In this document: piece after piece, positions 1,248 through 13,776 of the stretch
Layout: each line of letters opens with the position of its first letter
Position numbering within the stretch: position 1 is the first letter of the stretch
NCBI RefSeq assembly: GCF_900114545.1
Contig: NZ_FOTI01000011.1
Location: 1-64,000 of the forward strand
Origin: Halanaerobium salsuginis
GTDB lineage: Bacteria > Bacillota > Halanaerobiia > Halanaerobiales > Halanaerobiaceae
Direction of reading: 5' to 3'
DNA: 64,000 bases
Notes under the pieces: generated by a model
Told to the model about the DNA's origin: nothing
Database searches by the model: none
What the model saw: only the letters and a program-made list of their open reading frames with translations
Made by a program: the position numbers and the translations under genes

Positions 1248-2063
1248 TTGCTTATTGCAGAAGATGATATTCAAGATATTAACCAAATACTTTTAGCAGA
1301 AACAGGGACTTTCATTTCACCTGATAAAAAGAATTTGATTGAATTAAGGCTTTCTAGCCGGATAAAAGAGTTAGGCTTTATTGATCTGCAGGATTATCTG
1401 GCTTACTTAAAAATGAATAATCAAGAGCGTCTAATTTTTTTTAATCTCCTGACTACCAATTATACTAATTTTTGTCGAGAATCATATCATTTTGAAATTT
1501 TAATTAAAGAATTAATTCCCCAAATTTTAAAAACTAAAGATGAAATATCTATCTGGAGTGCAGGCTGTTCCTCGGGAGAAGAAGCCTACACAATTGCGAT
1601 TTTATTAAATCATTTTTTTGCAAATAAGCTTAACTTTAATATTCTAGGAACTGATATCAATACTGAAGTTCTTAGAGCAGCTAAAACTGGTATTTATACA
1701 CAAGAAGAAATTAATCGCTTAAAACCAGAATATTTATTTAATAATTTCCAGCAGGGAGTAGGAAAGTATGAAGGCTATTATCGAGTTAAAGCTCAGCTGC
1801 GTGAAAATATAAAATTTGAACATTTAAATTTGAATAAATTTGCTCGTGAAGGAATAAAGAAAAAATTTGATATTATTTTCTGTCGTAATGTTTTGATTTA
1901 TTTTAATGAAAGTAATAGAAAACGAGTAATTGCCCAGTTTAATCAAAGTTTAACAAAGCCCGGTTTTTTGATTTTAGGTCACTCTGAGAACATTAATCTA
2001 GCAAAAGCTGAAAATAATTCAATCTGGGAAAAAATAGCCCGAAATTCTTACCAGAAAATATAA
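1248..2063 (+). CDS. cheR: CheR chemotaxis protein methyltransferase
   Basis: Transfers methyl groups from S-adenosylmethionine to glutamates of chemoreceptors. The N-terminal helical CheR domain spans about residues 10-80 and includes a variant of the TxFFR motif (TNFCRE). The SAM site is [13 protein letters not shown] at about 103-115. Further family motifs are FCRNVLIYF at about 211-219 and GHSEN near residue 250. At 271 residues it has the usual length. The start is TTG with a strong AAGGGGGGA site 5 bases upstream; the next in-frame ATG is much further inside. It leads an apparent operon, since the chemoreceptor follows after 17 bases. No other che genes are visible in the window. Confidence 0.93.
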
Positions 2064-2080
2064 CAAATAGGGGGATAACA

Positions 2081-4132
2081 ATGACCAATCCTTTCAAGAA
2101 AATGTCGGTTAGTGTTAAATTAATTACGATCTTTCTTTTGATAATTTTTTTAAGTCTATCTGTTACAACCTATTTTAATTATAATGATTCACTCAGGCTG
2201 ACTACAGCTCAGATTAAGGAACAGCTTAATGTAGTTGCAGATTTGCGTAAAACAGAGATTGAGGATCTAGTTGGGCAGATGCAGAGCGAACTTAAAGTTT
2301 TAGCTGGCAATAGTTTAATCAAAAATAATTTGGCTAGCTTAGCTGATGCCACAGAAATTGAAAAAAATGTTTTATCAGACAGTGATTATAATCATGTTAA
2401 AGAAACAGTTTTAAATCAGCAGCAAGAATTTGGCTGGGAAGATGCTTATCTGGTTAATAATAGTGGTCAGGTTGTTTATAGTACTTCTGCTCAAGATGAT
2501 AAGAATACTAATTTAATTGATGGACCTTATCAGGATAGTATTTTAGCAGAGGCTTATCAGCTTGGACTAACTAAAGCAACTATTACTGATTTTGCCTACT
2601 ATGAAGCTGCTGATGCTGTAGCAGGGTTTTTAGCAATGCCTGTGACTAGAAATGATGTTACTCAAGGAGTAGCAATATTGCAATTCCCGGTTGAAAAGAT
2701 AAATAAAATTATGGAGAAGAAAGATTTAAAAGAAAAGAGTGGCAAAACATATTTGATTGGCGATGACAATCTAATGCGTTCTAATACAAGCTTTATTAAA
2801 ACTGATACCATTTTAAACTATCGAGTTGATACAGATGTAGCAAACAAGGCTTTAAATCATAAGAGTGGAGTGGAAGCAGGGCTTGATTTTGATAACACAC
2901 CAGTTTATAGTGCTTATACTCCAGTTACAATTGAAGGCTTAAATTGGGCTTTGATTTCAGAAGTTGATCAGTCAGAAGTAAGAGCGCCAATTGATGAAAT
3001 TTTACGCAAAAATTTATTTGTATTATTATTTGTGATGCTATTTGCTTTAATAGTTAGTTATACGATGATTAAAGTAATTATTTCACGGCCATTACTTAAG
3101 ATTCGTTCTTTACTGACAAAAGTTAGAGAAGAAAATGATTTACGGCAGCAGGTTAAGATTAATAAAGAAGATGAGATAGGCCAGCTGGCCCGTGACTTAA
3201 ATTATACACTGAATTCTCTGCGCAAGATAATTAATGGTGCTAAAAATATTTCAGCAAAAGTCAGTTCTTCAGCAGATAAGATAGCAGATGAGAACGAGGA
3301 TCTGTCAAATCGAACTATTAATCAAGCTTCAGCACTGGAAGAAATTTCAGCTAATATGGAAGAAGTTACAGCTTCAATTGAGAGTGTAGCAACATCTTCT
3401 GAAGAAGCCAGCAAAGTGGGTCAAAATAGTCTTAAGATTGTTAAAGAGGGTTCGGAGATTGTTGATGAAACAGTTTCATCAATGGCTGAAATCACCCGTA
3501 GTAGTCAGAAAATAGCAGAAATAATAACTACTGTAAATGAAATTGCTTCTCAGACAAATTTATTAGCCTTAAATGCAGCTATTGAAGCTGCTAGAGCTGG
3601 TGAAGCTAGTAGAGGATTCTCAGTAGTTGCCAGTGAGGTTAGAGATCTGGCAGAAAGAACAACTACTTCAGCTCGAGAAATTGAAAATATTATTAAAGAA
3701 ATTATTAGCAAAATTAAGAATGGCAATAAGTTAATCAATCAGACAGGTAAAAATCTAACTGAAATTGTTGAAAACACTGCTTTGACTTCTGAAACAATTA
3801 ATGAAATTTCTAATTCTATTCAGGAACAGGCAACAGCTTCAGAAGAAATTCAGCAGGTTATTTTAGATATAGATAATAATACTCAGAAAAATGCTAAATT
3901 AGTTGAAGACATTAGTGGTGATAGCGAACAGTTAAGTAAAGAATCAGCACGTTTGTTCAGGCTTGTCTCTAAATTCATTACTAACAGTAATAATGAAGCT
4001 GAATCTGATCAAGATAACGAAGATAATTCCCAAAACGAATCAGCAGCTTCAAATCAGCAAAAGGAAAAAGCAAAAGATAGATCTCCCCACGAAGATGATC
4101 AACAGTTTGACGGGTTCCGTGATTTTGACTAG
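2081..4132 (+). CDS. Methyl-accepting chemotaxis protein, Cache-type
   Basis: A 683-residue membrane receptor. TM1 is at about residues 13-32. The extracellular region to about 305 resembles a double Cache sensor ([16 protein letters not shown]). TM2 is at about 310-331, HAMP follows to about 385, and a long cytoplasmic coiled coil carries the conserved hairpin tip ([17 protein letters not shown], near residue 490). The tail after about 640 is acidic and polar with no CheR-binding pentapeptide that I recognise. It follows cheR by 17 bases with a GGGGGA site. The Cache family binds small organic ligands; the ligand here is unknown. Confidence 0.93.
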
Positions 4133-4173
4133 CAACTGATAGTTAAAGTGTCTGGAATTGAGGAGGGTGTATT

Positions 4174-5625
4174 ATGGATTTATTAAAAACAGGGATAGCT
4201 GGTCTCGACGAAATTTTGCGAGGTGGTTTAAGACCTTTTAGATCTTATTTAGTTAGAGGTGGACCCGGCAGTGGCAAAACAACTTTAGGTCTGCATTTTT
4301 TAAGTCAGTCCACTCAAGGCAAGAATTTATTTATTTCACTTGGTGAATCAGTAACTAAAATAAAAGACGATGCTAAAGGGCGAGGCTTTAATTTATCAGA
4401 AATAGAATTTCTTGAATTAAGTCCTTCTGCAAGTTTTTTAAGAGAACATGAAGGATATGATATATTTACTTCACAGGAAGTAGAGAAAACTCCAATTATA
4501 GATCAGATCATTGCTGAAATTGAAGATTTACAGCCAGCTAGAGTATTTCTTGATAGTGCAACTTATCTATCTTACTTAAGCAACGATAAGTTTCAATATC
4601 GCAAAGAAATTTTATCTTTAATAGACTTCACTGCAGAAGAAGATGCAACTTTAATGATTGCTTCTGAGTCTACTCAGCAAAATCCTGACTATGATTTACA
4701 GTTTGTAGTGGACGGTGTGCTTAATTTTACCCGAGAAGAAGACGAAAGATACCTTTATATTTCTAAACTAAGAGGAGCAAATTATCTTTCCGGGAAACAC
4801 TCTCTAAAACTAAAAGAGGCTGGGATAGAAGTTTATCCCGACTATATTCCGGTTGCTGAAAAGAAAGATGAAGATCGTAAAAAGATAAGTTCTGGTATTC
4901 CATCACTTGATAAGCTGCTTAATGGTGGTATTGAAAGAGGGACAACAACTATAATTAGTGGCCCAACCGGGGTTGGTAAAACAACCCTGGGTGTTCAATA
5001 TATGAAAGAAGCAGCCGGCCGGGGAGAAAAATCAATAATTTATACTTTTGAAGAATCAGTTGATACTATAATCAAACGCTGTGAAGCTATTAAAATACCG
5101 ATCAGTGATATGCTAGATAACTCTTTTTTAGAAATTGAACAAATTAATCCACTACGCTATTCACCAGCAGAATTTTTTACCAGGGTTAGAAAAAAAGTTG
5201 AGGCAAGTCAGATTGATATTATTATGCTTGATAGTCTATCTGGTTACAAAATGGCTTTTCCAGATAATAGTACTGATAATGAAAAAATTAAACAGCTTCA
5301 TATTCTTAATAAATATTTAAGTAGAATTGGAGTTACTATAATTATAGTTAATGAAGTAAGTAATATTATCGGGGATTTTAAAGCAACTGGCTTTGGAATT
5401 AGCTATCTAGCAGATAATATAATTATTTTAAATTATCTGGAATATGGCAGCCAAATAAGAAAATCAATCGGAGTTTTGAAAAAGAGATTAAGTGACTTTG
5501 AAAGGTATTTAAGAAATTTTGAAATAGGAGAATATGGAATTGAAGTTGGAGAGCCTCTGTCAGATTTACAGGGAATCTTAACTGGTAATGTGGTTAATAT
5601 TGGTGATGGTGGTGATCGTGAATAA
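4174..5625 (+). CDS. KaiC-like protein with two RecA-type ATPase domains
   Basis: A 483-residue protein with two KaiC domains in tandem. The first Walker A is GGPGSGKTT at about residues 29-37, the second GPTGVGKTT at about 262-270. The paired catalytic glutamates typical of KaiC are kept in the second domain (TFEES), whereas the first has GE (SLGES). Both domains end with KaiC-style strands (ISKLRGANYLSGK; VLKKRLSDFERY). No kaiA or kaiB is present, so circadian function is not implied. Bacterial KaiC-like ATPases are often tied to two-component and c-di-GMP signalling, which suits its place between a chemoreceptor and a GGDEF/HD-GYP protein. AGGAGGGTG precedes the ATG. Confidence 0.85.
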   Translation: MDLLKTGIAGLDEILRGGLRPFRSYLVRGGPGSGKTTLGLHFLSQSTQGKNLFISLGESVTKIKDDAKGRGFNLSEIEFLELSPSASFLREHEGYDIFTSQEVEKTPIIDQIIAEIEDLQPARVFLDSATYLSYLSNDKFQYRKEILSLIDFTAEEDATLMIASESTQQNPDYDLQFVVDGVLNFTREEDERYLYISKLRGANYLSGKHSLKLKEAGIEVYPDYIPVAEKKDEDRKKISSGIPSLDKLLNGGIERGTTTIISGPTGVGKTTLGVQYMKEAAGRGEKSIIYTFEESVDTIIKRCEAIKIPISDMLDNSFLEIEQINPLRYSPAEFFTRVRKKVEASQIDIIMLDSLSGYKMAFPDNSTDNEKIKQLHILNKYLSRIGVTIIIVNEVSNIIGDFKATGFGISYLADNIIILNYLEYGSQIRKSIGVLKKRLSDFERYLRNFEIGEYGIEVGEPLSDLQGILTGNVVNIGDGGDRE

Positions 5626-7518: not shown

Positions 7519-9366
7519 GTGTTTTTTATGCTAAAATCAATATTTAGAATAGAGAATTTAACAGCTCTTAAACCTAAAGTTTATAATTTAAGTAAGATTA
7601 ACCTCAGTTTAGCAGCGGGTGAAATTCAGGCGATTGTAGGTTTAGAAGGATCAGGCAAAAAAAATTTAATCCAGGCTTTAGCAGGCTTAATTGAGACAGA
7701 AGGAAGAGTATATTTAGAAGAAAAGCAGCTTGACTTAAAATTGGCAAACTTAAGAGAAAATAAAATTGACTTTATTTTCTATAATTCTTCTCTAGTAGAT
7801 CAATTAACAATTGTAGAAAATATCTGTTTAAATCGATATCCCAGATTAAAGTTCTTACCGCTTGTTGATAAGAAAAAAGCTTTCTATCGGACAAGAAAGG
7901 CTTTGAAATTAATGGAGTTAGATTTTAGTCCGACTACTTATGTTAAGACTCTTTCGCGAGATGAAAAAAAACAATTGGCTATTGCTAGAGCATTTTTTTA
8001 TCAGCCTAAAGTAATAATAATCTATGAACCTACCAATGGCCTCAGTATTGAATCAATTAAAAAGTTCTATGATAATATTTACGAATATAAATCAAATGGT
8101 GGGGCAGTGATTTATATTACTAAACAATGGAAAGATGCTTTGAAAATAGCAGATAAAATTGTAGTTCTAAATCAAGGATCAGTTGCAGGAATAATTAGCA
8201 CTAAAGCAGCTAATAAAAATCCTGATCAGATTTTAAATATGATGTTAGGTAATCAAAAAAACTATGATTCTAAAAATAATTACTCTCTTGATGCTGAAGC
8301 CCAAAAAATACTAAATACAGTTTTTAAAGCAACTGAATTTCTAACCTCTAATTATGAATTGAAGGATGTACTTAAGTTATTAGCTGAATATAGTGCAGAT
8401 TTTACAAAAGCTGATAATTGTACAATTAAATTACTTGACGAAAATACAGGCAGCATAATCGATACTGTTAGATACAACACTGGGAGTGGAATAGAAAGCG
8501 AAATAAAAAAAGAAATTATTTTTAAAATTGCTAGAGAAGAAAAAATATTTTCTTTAACTGTGGCTGATCAAAAGTTTAACTCTGTTTTCATTAAAAATAG
8601 AGGGGTTAAGTCAATAATAATAATCCCTGTTTTAATTCGTTCTCATATAAGTGGAATTATTCAGTTGTCTTTTTCCTATCAAAAGTTGTATAATTATTCT
8701 GAAGATGAAAAAAATTATCTAACAACTTTAGCTAAACAAGCGGCAATAGCAATTGAAGACACAAGATTAATGGGCAGATCAACTTTACTGCAAGAAAGTC
8801 ATCACAGGATAAAAAATAATCTGCAGTATATTATTAGTTTAATTACTTTGCAAAAAGCTTTTATTGAGGATAATTCTAAGAAAAATATTGAAGATATTTT
8901 AAATAATACTATAGCTAGAATTAAAAGTATAGCTGCAGTGCATGATTTATTATCACAGGATAGCTTTGGTAGAAGTATAATTAATTTAAAAGATATTTTT
9001 AAAGTAATTATAAATTTTTTGAATAATGGTCAATTAAAAATTAAAATTAATCTATCAGATATTTTTATTTCATATTCGAGAGCCTCTGCAATTGCTTTAG
9101 TTTTTAATGAAATTTTAAGTAATTGTATTGAACATGCTTTTATAGATGAAATAGGAGAAATTAATGTAATAACTTATCGACAAGATGAGCAAATTAAATT
9201 AATTGTTGCTGATAATGGTCAAGGAATGCCAGCAGAATTTTGTCTAGAAAAGCAATCAACACTTGGTCTATCAATTGTTTATTCAATAATAAAAAAACAA
9301 TTTAGAGGTGATATTTTATTAACTTCAAATAAAGGTACGAGAATTGAAATAACTATACCTGATTAA
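7519..9366 (+). CDS. Degenerate ABC-ATPase domain fused to GAF and HisKA_2 histidine kinase
   Basis: A 615-residue fusion. Residues 8-240 resemble the first half of a sugar-transporter ATPase such as AraG or RbsA, but key residues are altered. Walker A is GLEGSGKK (no Ser/Thr after Lys). Walker B reads IIIYEPT, with Tyr for the Mg-binding Asp. The signature is LSRDEKK, and the H-loop His is Lys (YITKQ). ATP hydrolysis by this part is therefore doubtful. A GAF-like domain (about 290-410) follows, then an HisKA_2 box ESHHRIKNNLQ (about 426-436) and a HATPase domain with NEILSNCIEHAF and DNGQGMP. No membrane segment is seen. The gene precedes an ANTAR regulator and araFGH. Start is GTG 7519 or ATG 7528, neither with a clear ribosome site. 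Confidence 0.85.
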   Translation: MFFMLKSIFRIENLTALKPKVYNLSKINLSLAAGEIQAIVGLEGSGKKNLIQALAGLIETEGRVYLEEKQLDLKLANLRENKIDFIFYNSSLVDQLTIVENICLNRYPRLKFLPLVDKKKAFYRTRKALKLMELDFSPTTYVKTLSRDEKKQLAIARAFFYQPKVIIIYEPTNGLSIESIKKFYDNIYEYKSNGGAVIYITKQWKDALKIADKIVVLNQGSVAGIISTKAANKNPDQILNMMLGNQKNYDSKNNYSLDAEAQKILNTVFKATEFLTSNYELKDVLKLLAEYSADFTKADNCTIKLLDENTGSIIDTVRYNTGSGIESEIKKEIIFKIAREEKIFSLTVADQKFNSVFIKNRGVKSIIIIPVLIRSHISGIIQLSFSYQKLYNYSEDEKNYLTTLAKQAAIAIEDTRLMGRSTLLQESHHRIKNNLQYIISLITLQKAFIEDNSKKNIEDILNNTIARIKSIAAVHDLLSQDSFGRSIINLKDIFKVIINFLNNGQLKIKINLSDIFISYSRASAIALVFNEILSNCIEHAFIDEIGEINVITYRQDEQIKLIVADNGQGMPAEFCLEKQSTLGLSIVYSIIKKQFRGDILLTSNKGTRIEITIPD

Positions 9367-9378
9367 GGAGGAATATAA

Positions 9379-9966
9379 ATGAATAGTTCTTTAAATATTA
9401 TGATTGCAGAAGATGAATCAATAATTTTAATGGGATTAAAAGCTAATTTAACCGAATTAGGTCATCAGGTAATTGCAGAAGCATTTGATGGAGAAGAAGC
9501 AATAAAGAAAGCCTTATATTATGAACCTGATTTAATTTTAATTGATATTAATATGCCTAAAACAGATGGCATTGAAGCGATTAGGAGAATTAGTCAGAAA
9601 AAATTAATTCCCTGTATTATAATTACAGGTTACAATGATGAAAAATTAATTAAAAGAGCTACAGAAGCAGGTGCTTTTGCTTATCTTGTTAAACCAGTTG
9701 CTAAAAAAGAAATAGAACCAGCAATAAGTATAGCTGTAGCAAGATCTGCTGATTTTAAACAAGTTAATCAGGAGCTGTCAGATAATAAAAAAGCATTAGT
9801 TAATCGCAAGTTAGTGGAAAGAGCTAAAGGCGTTTTGATGGATAGATTAAATTTAACCGAACAAACAGCAATGAAATTATTGCAAAAAAAAAGTAATGAT
9901 CGTAATTTAAAGTTAGCAATTATTGCCCAGGAAATTATTGAAGCTGATCAGAAATTGAGATTTTAA
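9379..9966 (+). CDS. Response regulator with ANTAR RNA-binding output domain
   Basis: A 195-residue protein. The receiver domain (1-120) shows the acidic pair AEDES, the phospho-acceptor Asp at about 56 (LILIDINMPKTDG) and the conserved Lys in YLVKPV. Residues about 130-190 form an ANTAR domain (VERAKGVLMDRLNLTEQTAMKLLQKKS). ANTAR proteins bind paired hexaloop hairpins in nascent RNA and prevent formation of a terminator. It starts 12 bases after the kinase stop with AAGGAGGA, so the two are co-translated partners. The target is probably the leader at 10071-10163, immediately downstream, which has a matching hairpin. Confidence 0.92.
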   Translation: MNSSLNIMIAEDESIILMGLKANLTELGHQVIAEAFDGEEAIKKALYYEPDLILIDINMPKTDGIEAIRRISQKKLIPCIIITGYNDEKLIKRATEAGAFAYLVKPVAKKEIEPAISIAVARSADFKQVNQELSDNKKALVNRKLVERAKGVLMDRLNLTEQTAMKLLQKKSNDRNLKLAIIAQEIIEADQKLRF

Positions 9967-10019: not shown

Positions 10020-10048
10020 TTGACTTTTTAAATAATATTTGTTAAACT
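10020..10048 (+). promoter_or_regulatory. Promoter of the arabinose transporter operon
   Basis: TTGACT, 17 bases, TAAACT. Transcription would begin near 10055, just before the leader hairpins. Confidence 0.55.
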
Positions 10049-10070
10049 ATTTACAAATAAAATAGGTATT

Positions 10071-10111
10071 TTGCTGATGGTTGGCAAGATAATAAGAGGT
10101 CATGGTAGGCC
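10071..10111 (+). ncRNA. Candidate ANTAR-binding leader with two stem-loops
   Basis: The second stem-loop is GGTC-ATGGTA-GGCC at 10098-10111. Its six-base loop has A at position 1 and G at position 4, the conserved pattern of ANTAR target loops. An upstream stem TTGCT/GGCAA at 10071-10087 carries a loop that also contains ATGGT, though it is 7 bases by my pairing. The 3' side of the second stem overlaps the 5' arm of the terminator at 10110, so the two structures exclude each other. Pairings were worked out by eye. Confidence 0.6.
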
Positions 10112-10163
10112 CCCTAACAGTTAATTATTTTTAAACAAAGATAGTTACTGTCAGGGGGTTTTT
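10110..10163 (+). terminator. Leader terminator upstream of araF
   Basis: CCCCCTAACAGT at 10110-10121 pairs with ACTGTCAGGGGG at 10147-10158, 12 positions with one mismatch, then five T. It sits in front of the transporter genes, the position expected of a regulated attenuator rather than an operon end. Confidence 0.8.
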
Positions 10164-10261: not shown

Positions 10262-11227
10262 TTGAAAAAAAGAATAATTATTTTATTAGCAGTATTTATT
10301 TTAGCAGGAATGAGCTTAAATGTGGCAGCTAAAGATGTAAAAATAGGTTTTTTAGTTAAGCAGCCAGAAGAAGCCTGGTTTCAAGATGAATGGAAATTTG
10401 CAGAAGCAGCTGCAAATGATTATGACTTCGAATTAGTTAAAATTGGTGCTACTGATGGAGAAAAAGTACTATCGGCAATTGATAACCTTGCTTCTCAAGG
10501 AGCACAGGGTTTTATTATTTGCACTCCCGATGTAAAATTAGGACCAGCAATTGCTGCAAAAGCTAATATGAATAAATTAAAATTCATGAGTGTAGATGAT
10601 CGTTTTGTTGGTTCAAATGGTAAAGTAATGGAAGAAGTTCATCATATGGGGATTTCTGCTTATAATATTGGTAAACTAGTTGGTAAAACTCTGGTAGAAC
10701 AGATGGATAATCGTAATTGGGATTATAATGATGTTGGTTATTTGGTAATGACTTATGACCAATTACCTACTATTTCTGAAAGAACTCAGGGAGCAACCGA
10801 TGTTTTACTAGAAAATGCTTTTCCAGAGGCAAATATATTTGATAGTCCTATGAAAACACTTGATACAGAAGGATCTTTTAATGCTGCTAATTTTGCTTTA
10901 ACTAAACATTCAAATATTAATAAGTGGATTGTAGCTGGAGGTAATGATTCATCAGTTATTGGTGCAATTAGGGCTTTAGAAGGTCAAGGATTTGGAGCTA
11001 ATGATGTAATCGGTATTGGTATTAATGGATCTAATTTTGTAATTAATGAATTTGAAAAAGATGAACCGACGGGTTTTTATGCTTCAGTTAAATTAAGCGC
11101 TAGACAACACGGTTATGAAACAGCAGAACTAATGTATAAATGGATTAATGAAGATAAAGAACCACCTAAAGTAACCTGGACTTCAGGAACAATCATGACT
11201 AGAGATAATTACCAAGAATTAAATTAA
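10262..11227 (+). CDS. araF: L-arabinose-binding protein AraF
   Basis: Solute-binding lipoprotein or secreted receptor of an ABC importer. A signal peptide occupies about residues 1-23 (KKRIIILLAVFILAG, then AAKDVKIGF). There is no lipobox cysteine. The mature protein closely follows E. coli AraF from memory: KIGFLVKQPEEAWFQ, EWKFAEAA, GFIICTPDVKLG, GNDSSVIGA and IGIGINGSNFV. At 321 residues it matches the usual length. The start is TTG with GAGGGGGAAA upstream. It is first in araFGH, separated from araG by a stem-loop that could favour higher expression of the binding protein. Arabinose specificity is inferred from the AraF-like sequence. Confidence 0.9.
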   Translation: MKKRIIILLAVFILAGMSLNVAAKDVKIGFLVKQPEEAWFQDEWKFAEAAANDYDFELVKIGATDGEKVLSAIDNLASQGAQGFIICTPDVKLGPAIAAKANMNKLKFMSVDDRFVGSNGKVMEEVHHMGISAYNIGKLVGKTLVEQMDNRNWDYNDVGYLVMTYDQLPTISERTQGATDVLLENAFPEANIFDSPMKTLDTEGSFNAANFALTKHSNINKWIVAGGNDSSVIGAIRALEGQGFGANDVIGIGINGSNFVINEFEKDEPTGFYASVKLSARQHGYETAELMYKWINEDKEPPKVTWTSGTIMTRDNYQELN

Positions 11228-11303: not shown

Positions 11304-12794
11304 ATGGAACATTATTTAGAGTTCAAAAGTATAACCAAAACTTTTCCTGGAGTTAGAGCATTAGATAAAGTCTCTTTTACTGTTAAAAGTTCTAGTATTC
11401 ATGGCCTGGTGGGAGAAAATGGGGCTGGAAAATCTACTTTGTTACACACCTTAAGTGGGGCTCTAATCCCTAATGAAGGGAAAATAATAATTAACGGTAA
11501 AGCAATGAAATTTTCTAGTACTAAAGATGCGCTTGATGCTGGAATAGCCGTTATTTATCAGGAATTAAATTTAGTACCAGAAATGACTGTAGCAGAAAAT
11601 CTAATGATCGGTAATTTTCCTAATCACAGTGGCCTTGTTGATCATAAAAAACTTCGCAAGCAGGCTGAAAAACAGATTAAACGACTAATGGAAGAATTTA
11701 ATCCAGATACGAAAGTTAAAAATCTTTCTATTGCACAAAAACAAATGATTGAAATTGGTAAGGCTCTTATGCAGGATGCCCAAATTATTGCTTTTGACGA
11801 ACCAACCAGTTCACTTTCTGATCGAGAAATTAAACATCTTTTTACTATTATAGAGCAATTAAAAGCAGAAGGAAGAGCTATAATTTATGTTTCTCATCGC
11901 ATGGAAGAAATTTTTAAGATTTGTGATACTTGTACAGTTTTTAGAGATGGTAAACATATCGAAACTTTTACCGATATGGAGAAAGTTAGTCATGACCTTT
12001 TAGTAAAGAAAATGGTTGGTCGGGAATTAAATGATGTTTATGGTTATGAATCTCGACCTGCTGGTGAAGTTATCTTTTCTGTTAAAAATCTGCAAGGTCC
12101 AGGTGTAAATAAACCGATTAGTCTTAAATTAAAAGCTGGAGAAGTAATAGGGATCTTCGGGCTTGTTGGAGCAGGTCGAACAGAACTTTTTAAATTAATT
12201 TATGGGCTAGAAGAGCTAGAAAAAGGTGAGATAGAAGTGCAGGGTGAAAAATTGGCTATTAAAAATCCTCATTATTCTATTAAAAATAAAATTTGTCTGC
12301 TGCCAGAAGATCGTAAAGAAGAAGGTATTATTGGAATTAGGTCAGTTAGCGAAAATATAAATGTTAGTAGCCGGCGTCATACACTTAAATTTAACTTTTT
12401 TTTAGATAAAGATGCTGAGAGAAAGATAGCTGATAAATTTATTAATGAATTAGCAATCAAAACTCCTTCTCGGGAGCAATTAACAGGTAATCTTTCTGGA
12501 GGAAATCAACAAAAAGTAATTTTATCTCGTTGGTTAAGTGAGGATATTGATATCTTTTTAATGGATGAACCTACTCGAGGAATTGATGTAGGTGCTAAAT
12601 ATGAAATCTATAAAATAATGTATCAGCTTGCCGCAAGTGGGAAAGGAATTATTTTTATTTCTAGTGATTTACCAGAAGTGATGGGAGTAGCTGATAGAAT
12701 AATTGTAATGAGAACAGGAGAAATAGTTGGTTCATTAAGCAGAGAGGCAGCAACTGAAGAAAAAATATTATCAATGGCCTTACCTGTAAATTAA
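11304..12794 (+). CDS. araG: L-arabinose ABC transporter ATP-binding protein AraG
   Basis: Energises arabinose import. The 496-residue protein has two ABC ATPase halves. In the first, Walker A is GENGAGKST (about 37-45) with Walker B AFDEPTSSLS and H-loop YVSHRMEE. The second half has the degenerate Walker A typical of this family (GLVGAGRTE), a signature LSGGNQQK and FLMDEPTRGIDVG. Length and layout match AraG/RbsA/MglA. TAAGGAG precedes the ATG. It is flanked by araF and araH in the classical order. The intact catalytic residues here contrast with the altered ones in the ABC-like domain of the kinase at 7519-9366. Confidence 0.93.
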   Translation: MEHYLEFKSITKTFPGVRALDKVSFTVKSSSIHGLVGENGAGKSTLLHTLSGALIPNEGKIIINGKAMKFSSTKDALDAGIAVIYQELNLVPEMTVAENLMIGNFPNHSGLVDHKKLRKQAEKQIKRLMEEFNPDTKVKNLSIAQKQMIEIGKALMQDAQIIAFDEPTSSLSDREIKHLFTIIEQLKAEGRAIIYVSHRMEEIFKICDTCTVFRDGKHIETFTDMEKVSHDLLVKKMVGRELNDVYGYESRPAGEVIFSVKNLQGPGVNKPISLKLKAGEVIGIFGLVGAGRTELFKLIYGLEELEKGEIEVQGEKLAIKNPHYSIKNKICLLPEDRKEEGIIGIRSVSENINVSSRRHTLKFNFFLDKDAERKIADKFINELAIKTPSREQLTGNLSGGNQQKVILSRWLSEDIDIFLMDEPTRGIDVGAKYEIYKIMYQLAASGKGIIFISSDLPEVMGVADRIIVMRTGEIVGSLSREAATEEKILSMALPVN

Positions 12795-12819: not shown

Positions 12820-13776
12820 ATGAATAATAGTGCAACTACTCAAAGTAAAATTAAATATTTATATAACAATTATAGCATTATTTTTATTTTTGTAATCATG
12901 TTTATTTTATTGTCAATTTTTGTCCCTTACTTTTTTACCTGGCGCAATATGCTGGGGCTAGCTTTATCTGTAGTAACAATTGGTATTATTGCTAATACAA
13001 TGATGTTTGCTCTCGGGAGTGGTGATTTTGATCTTTCTGTTAGTTCAACAGTAGCTTTTTCTGGAATTACTGCTGCTGTAGTTATTAATGCAACTGGTAG
13101 TGTAATACTTGGAATTGTTAGTGGTATTCTTGCTGGTGGATTTGTGGGGCTTATTAATGGTTATTCAATTGCCAAACTTGGCCTAAATGCTTTAATTACT
13201 ACTTTAGCAACTCAGATGATTTTTAGGGGGATGGCCTTTATTCTTTCTAATGGACGAGCAGTTGGAATTAGTAAAGCTGGATTTTTTAAATTAGGAAATA
13301 GCATGATTTTTGGAATTCCAACGCCTATTTGGATTTTAATTATTTCTTTTATAATCTTTGGCATTTTATTAAATAATACTGTTTTTGGTAAAAACACTCT
13401 TGCTATTGGTGGCAATACTAAAGCTGCTGAATTAGCTGGAATTAATGTTAATATAACTAAAATTATAATATTTACAGCCCAGGGATTTATGGCTGGTTTT
13501 GCTGGAGTTATTTTAGCTTCTCGTATGACAAGTGGTCAGCCGAATGCTGCTCAAGGCTTAGAATTAGATGTAATTTCAGCTTGTGTATTGGGAGGAGTTT
13601 CGCTTAATGGTGGAATTGCAACTATTAGTGGGGTAATTGTTGGGGTATTAATTATGGGAATGATTTCAAATGCACTTAATTTGTTAAATGTTGCTACTTT
13701 TTATCAATATGTGGTTCGAGGAGCAGTTTTATTAATTGCTATTTATCTTGATATCTTAAAACAGAGAAACCAGTAA
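12820..13776 (+). CDS. araH: L-arabinose ABC transporter permease AraH
   Basis: Integral membrane permease of 318 residues with about eight to ten hydrophobic segments. It is strongly similar, from memory, to E. coli AraH: ALGSGDFDLSV, NALITTLATQMIFRG, AIGGNTKAAELAGI, ASRMTSGQPNAA and CVLGGVSLNGGI. The ASGDFDLSV-like stretch is the binding-protein-dependent branched/monosaccharide permease signature. It starts 25 bases after araG with AAGGAG. The C-terminus is LDILKQRNQ, slightly shorter than the E. coli protein. Confidence 0.92.
   Translation: MNNSATTQSKIKYLYNNYSIIFIFVIMFILLSIFVPYFFTWRNMLGLALSVVTIGIIANTMMFALGSGDFDLSVSSTVAFSGITAAVVINATGSVILGIVSGILAGGFVGLINGYSIAKLGLNALITTLATQMIFRGMAFILSNGRAVGISKAGFFKLGNSMIFGIPTPIWILIISFIIFGILLNNTVFGKNTLAIGGNTKAAELAGINVNITKIIIFTAQGFMAGFAGVILASRMTSGQPNAAQGLELDVISACVLGGVSLNGGIATISGVIVGVLIMGMISNALNLLNVATFYQYVVRGAVLLIAIYLDILKQRNQ

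Follow-up and report, generated by a model that had tools for sequence, protein, structure and literature searches.

It is an open question how bacteria tie regulation to the activity of a transporter, and not to the free ligand; the known cases in which a regulator reads a transporter need separate or membrane-embedded partners. A sensor kinase encoded in the window (the whole stretch of 64,000 nucleotides analysed here) raises this question in an unusual form, since it carries a domain resembling the motor ATPase of a sugar importer and stands upstream of an importer of that kind. The kinase with its parts, and the genes that follow it, are:

7519..9366, + strand: fusion sensor kinase, with a CUT2 NBD1-like pseudo-ATPase, GAF, HisKA_2 and HATPase_c (open frame, Pfam)
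7534..8256, + strand: ABC (NBD1-like) domain, residues 6-246
7639..7665, + strand: P-loop GLEGSGKKN, with its Lys retained and a Lys replacing Ser/Thr
8023..8028, + strand: Walker B Tyr169-Glu170 (IIIYEPT), with the metal-ligand Asp substituted and the catalytic Glu retained
8119..8130, + strand: H-loop rebuilt as Thr-Lys-Gln-Trp
8332..8757, + strand: GAF domain, residues 272-413
8794..9360, + strand: HisKA_2 (phosphoacceptor ESHHRIKNNLQ) and HATPase_c
9379..9966, + strand: response regulator with a C-terminal ANTAR RNA-binding domain (Pfam)
10262..11227, + strand: sugar-binding protein of the apparently controlled CUT2 transporter
11304..12794, + strand: AraG-like double-NBD ATPase, with NBD1 intact and NBD2 naturally variant
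12820..13776, + strand: AraH-like permease

The open frame (7519-9366, + strand) encodes 615 aa from its longest start, GTG 7519; the true start is likely ATG 7528, giving 612 aa, because alignment from there matches the starts of the homologues. Pfam places ABC_tran at residues 24-173 (74 bits), GAF at 281-412, HisKA_2 at 426-499 and HATPase_c at 524-614, all above the curated cut-offs, and thereby confirms all four parts of the architecture given by the first-pass annotation, which had described a domain like half of AraG/RbsA joined to GAF, HisKA_2 and HATPase. The residues it had singled out are likewise correct, i.e., a Walker A ending in GKK, Tyr for Asp in Walker B and Lys for His in the H-loop (TKQ). 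In the window kinase, the Q-loop Gln is also replaced by Tyr and the A-loop Phe is absent. AlphaFold2 predicts an ABC NBD fold for residues 6-240 (pLDDT mostly 84-94), and the top PDB matches of the ABC-domain model in Foldseek are ABC NBDs. With a pTM of 0.46, the model of the full chain is less reliable, and domain packing was therefore left unused. PADLOC matched the ABC part to mads_3 only, which we judged meaningless. Elsewhere in the window (1248-5625), a CheR-like methyltransferase and a chemoreceptor-like protein (both assigned by sequence reading) are followed by a double KaiC-domain ATPase, upstream of a GGDEF-HD protein (both assigned by Pfam).

The origin of the ABC domain can be stated more sharply than as half of AraG/RbsA: it is the N-terminal half, NBD1. 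In a maximum-likelihood tree, the ABC domains of the fusions cluster with NBDs from the N-terminal half of CUT2 ATPases (support 100/100), and the top NCBIfam matches of the domain are the N-halves of MglA, AlsA and AraG. The adjacent transporter is itself araFGH-like, its AraG scoring 778 bits against a cut-off of 689 and its AraH 453 against 378 (NCBIfam). A copy of the ABC domain from this neighbouring AraG is nevertheless ruled out by the tree, since 20 transporter NBD1s form a clade of their own (99/99) that holds no fusion domains. The fusion domains are split in the best tree, and the one-clade alternative has a p-AU of 0.33, so that a single origin is not rejected. In fold, sequence and N-terminal placement of the NBD, the kinase domain is like the CUT2 ATPases (AraG, RbsA, MglA), but it is one NBD fused to a kinase, with no NBD2 in the chain by Pfam, and its catalytic motifs are replaced in 15 of 16 fusions.

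We found 15 ABC-GAF-HisKA_2 homologues besides the window kinase, plus one truncated copy, spread over several families of a single bacterial phylum, which is the phylum that the whole-genome searches covered. The set comprises 13 complete frames (L070 included), one frame split by a TAG (L027) and one cut at a contig end (L041). Nine of the 38 genomes of the order carry fusions, a count that takes in the window genome, as do 7 of the 398 genomes sampled across the phylum, the two sets partly overlapping; further ones came from searching the order and class of other matches. A scan of genome contigs with the kinase protein gave four matches, all to unrelated ABC proteins.

The first-pass annotation had placed the fusion beside its own sugar ABC transporter and had held that fusions regularly found far from any such transporter would speak against its reading. 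We found the opposite: CUT2 (Ara/Rbs-type) transporter genes are present at 15/15 fusion loci with readable context, a count that includes the window, L033 (permease upstream, where the contig ends) and L031 (two permeases, the contig ending before any ATPase), and leaves out L041 (context unreadable) and the truncated copy. An ANTAR response regulator lies 3' of the kinase wherever the downstream side is readable. The catabolic neighbours vary among loci (FGGY kinases, AraA, alcohol dehydrogenase, glycyl radical enzyme with its activase, transketolase), and since CUT2 genes are present at 15/15 loci despite this, what stays constant beside the fusion is the class of transporter. The literature searched holds no description of an ABC-GAF-HisKA_2 type fusion, and the system is real and conserved and, in that literature, apparently undescribed.

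Three loci of the set have features of their own. At L027:7524-9416, the fusion gene is broken by an in-frame TAG inside the ABC domain, while the regulator, the transporter ATPase and the leader RNA described below (45.6 bits) are intact; the TAG could mark a pseudogene, an assembly error or readthrough. The truncated copy (L032:8178-9485) has no HATPase domain and no nearby ANTAR regulator or leader match, and its host genome (G005) holds two full systems. Between L024:6001-13981 and L025, from two species of one genus, DNA identity rises from ~80% to 90-98% near 7730 and falls again near 13230, so that the high-identity block begins where ABC and GAF meet and takes in everything up to and including the permease, with most of the ABC domain outside it. 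This suggests recombination at the domain border.

Between the regulator and the transporter lies a dual hairpin with an overlapping terminator, which the first-pass annotation had missed:

10020..10048, + strand: promoter-like TTGACT-17-TAAACT, with TG before the -10
10067..10091, + strand: P1 hairpin, ANTAR-type target, TATTTTGCTG-ATGGT-TGGCAAGATA
10098..10111, + strand: P2 hairpin, ANTAR-type target, GGTC-ATGGTA-GGCC, its 3' strand shared with the terminator
10110..10163, + strand: intrinsic terminator CCCCCTAACAG...CTGTCAGGGGG-TTTTT, which excludes P2 and vice versa

An Rfam scan of the window returned nothing above the gathering thresholds, and the leader was therefore found by comparison. 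The predicted terminator fold has -43.4 kcal/mol (z -6.8), and without the terminator 3' arm, P1 and P2 form in the fold prediction. Over 12 loci, 86.5% of the P1/P2 cells are paired compared with 72.8% in shuffles, 25 cells are double-changed compared with 8.8, and the covariation score is 0.48 compared with 0.23, with 0/500 shuffles as high; slid controls gave fewer paired cells and a lower covariation score. The signal comes mainly from P1. P2 is nearly invariant, which would be expected if both the protein and the terminator constrain it. With a covariance model, 13 leaders gave one strong match each, among them L070, on which the model was not trained (38.7 bits); the L038 leader gave only a weak match. 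The window genome has one strong match, its own leader at 49.2 bits. The next (G000:C63:20112-20162, L043) has 20.2 bits and an E of 0.24 and is probably a chance match. The model can be used for finding more such leaders. The promoter-like element precedes P1, but in AT-rich DNA like that found here matches of this kind are frequent; visual inspection shows similar TTGA...TATA-type elements in several of the homologous leaders.

ANTAR targets are described for EutW/EutV, the ethanolamine two-component antitermination system, where the loop consensus is a hexaloop with A1 and G4 (PMC3369931, PMC8934654). In the fusion-locus leaders, an A and a G with one base between them are conserved in P1 of 12/12 (A12 and G14 invariant) and in nearly all P2, in loops of 5-7 nt, the size depending on the pairing chosen; relative to the eut consensus, either the A or the G is offset by one base. 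These loops (window 10071-10082, 10098-10111 and their counterparts in homologous leaders) possibly present a variant recognition geometry.

The unfused relatives of the kinase bear on its output module. The closest kinases found without the ABC domain (L058-L060) look EutW-like and each lies beside an ANTAR regulator, with genes resembling eut genes adjoining the kinase in two of the three (L058 and L060); a further relative without the ABC domain (L057) has another N-terminus and also an adjacent ANTAR regulator. No CUT2-type transporter adjoins the closest unfused kinases within the ~1.5 kb read. The output module is therefore of the EutVW kind, and the change lies in the input module. By analogy with ANTAR work, from which phosphorylation, P1/P2 binding and antitermination are carried over, the kinase would phosphorylate the regulator, whose ANTAR dimer would bind P1/P2 during transcription, and P2 would then withhold the terminator 5' arm so that the transporter operon is read. 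We consider it very probable that the locus encodes such an EutVW-type antitermination circuit dedicated to the adjacent CUT2 importer. A whole-genome search found the regulator (9379..9966) to be the single ANTAR protein of the window genome. With a single ANTAR protein and a single strong target, the kinase appears to control the adjacent importer only, via the RNA switch, and it may therefore sense the importer itself.

What the ABC domain could contribute to such sensing depends on its active site. The motif counts cover 16 fusion domains (L070, read later, is outside them) and 20 transporter NBD1s; the motifs are intact in 20/20 of the transporter domains, whereas 1/16 fusions is intact at these positions and 15/16 are changed. 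The A-loop Phe is lost in 16/16 fusions, the H-loop His in 15/16, the Walker B Asp in 12/16 (His in 10, Tyr in the window, Gln in L033) and the Q-loop Gln in 11/16. By contrast, the P-loop Lys is retained in 15/16, the P-loop being lost in L033, and the Walker B Glu in 16/16, so that nucleotide binding may survive in the ABC domain. The 12 Halanaerobiales-type members share newly fixed residues, namely the Thr and Trp in the H-loop T-K-Q-W (12/12) and Lys151 after the signature (12/12); the Lys and Gln in T-K-Q-W are present in 9/12, and His at the Walker B Asp position in 10/12. The less altered members are L038 (Walker A and B retained), L040/L041 (Walker A, Gln and Walker B retained) and the distant homologue L039, which keeps GENGAGKSS, Gln, Asp-Glu and His but not the A-loop Phe. 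The pseudo-ATPase state is therefore derived and does not define the family. Accordingly, the earlier description of the domain as a likely inactive ATPase holds for the window kinase and almost every homologue, whose site looks unfit for hydrolysis, but not for L039, the one homologue in which the catalytic residues that the first-pass annotation would have counted against itself are largely in place (all but the A-loop Phe). No part of the kinase evolves faster than the ABC domain (mean pairwise identity 36% versus 44% for GAF). Five pairs of relatives give it an omega of 0.11-0.18, with synonymous sites close to saturation in the more distant of these pairs. The low omega marks purifying selection; together with the newly fixed residues it indicates re-purposing, not decay.

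We infer that sensing of the importer state by the NBD-like domain best explains the input. The sensor would have gained its NBD long ago from the ATPase of a CUT2 sugar importer. In a dimer of the kinase, its NBD-like arms may bind the coupling helices of AraH, i.e., the NBD docking surface, or pair with AraG, and the state of the importer (idle, occupied or short of AraG) would set kinase activity, with bound, unhydrolysed nucleotide possibly part of this input and GAF acting as a relay or second input. The first-pass annotation had proposed a similar input, with the domain docking on AraH or competing with AraG; its interpretation is supported in part, by the AraG-like half domain, the strict linkage to a CUT2 transporter and the site that looks unfit for hydrolysis. 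In favor of importer-state sensing, the ABC domain stems from the regulated class of importers, and the linkage is constant despite varied catabolic genes. Against it, in a comparison of distance trees, the partial correlation between ABC domain and permease (0.47) is lower than that of the response regulator (0.55); the ABC domain is not singled out, because the regulator, which needs no permease contact, correlates more. The rapid evolution of the ABC domain relative to the rest of the kinase also counts against this reading. Conservation itself is accounted for about as well by nucleotide sensing or by GAF sugar sensing, and we regard the whole statement, i.e., the circuit together with an NBD-borrowing sensor and importer-state input, as evenly balanced.

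The better surviving of the other explanations is that the domain is a nucleotide (energy) sensor, in which the NBD-like domains bind ATP/ADP without hydrolysis, their closure and opening gate the kinase, and the transporter is the target only. The conservation of the P-loop and the Walker B Glu suits this equally: the P-loop Gly/Lys (15/16) and the Glu (16/16) rank with the best-conserved positions, whereas the hydrolysis residues have given way to substitutes that are themselves conserved (His in 10/12 at Walker B and Lys in 9/12 in the H-loop of the Halanaerobiales-type members). The A-loop Phe stacks on adenine in normal NBDs, but it is lost in 16/16 fusions, as is the Q-loop Gln in 11/16, and L033 lacks the P-loop; moreover, the exclusive company of CUT2 importers is left unexplained. 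We consider this explanation unlikely, if worth pursuing. Alternatively, GAF could be the true sensor, of a cytoplasmic sugar or metabolite, with the ABC domain serving only as a scaffold for extra dimer contacts or for stability. GAF indeed occurs in all members and varies less than the ABC domain, and the more distant L057 likewise combines a GAF-like region with an ANTAR regulator while differing in its N-terminus. However, the ABC domain is kept under strong purifying selection in all homologues found and was taken specifically from the regulated importer class, and we consider this explanation rather improbable. A decaying or chance fusion with a functionless ABC part, to which the stop codon in L027 and the truncated L032 without a regulator might point, is hardly credible given 15 homologues in several families, an omega of 0.11-0.18 and new invariant motif residues.

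Returning to importer-state sensing, a specific version can be put forward tentatively, although we would not bet on it: a decoy NBD would occupy the docking sites of the importer or pair with AraG, and by reading the assembly or turnover of the importer directly the kinase would drive antitermination of the importer's own operon, with nucleotide bound without Mg2+ or hydrolysis, and with Lys and His/Tyr replacing both metal ligands.

The fusion circuit can be regarded as a version of EutVW-type antitermination in which the sensor domain is unusual. It shares with EutVW the HisKA_2 kinase, the REC-ANTAR regulator, the P1/P2 hairpins and the embedding of P2 in the terminator, but differs in its kinase input (NBD1-like ABC plus GAF) and in its target, a CUT2 sugar importer; ANTAR antitermination would thereby extend to CUT2 sugar uptake. 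The parts, their ancestry, their linkage and the covarying RNA can be read from the sequences directly. Regarding transporter-reading regulators, MalK-MalT is a familiar example. The Pst/PhoU/PhoR model provides a precedent for a kinase reading the conformation of an ABC transporter (PMC5775613), and BceAB-BceS is a transporter-reading regulator system (PMC10314905). Our locus is like PstSCAB-PhoU-PhoR, BceAB-BceS and MalK-MalT in that a regulator is linked to an ABC importer or exporter, control by the transporter being the model proposed here, and unlike them in that an NBD homologue is part of the kinase, the contact here being putative. A soluble kinase with a built-in transporter motor domain, one regulator and apparently one adjacent RNA target would make this an unusually compact system.
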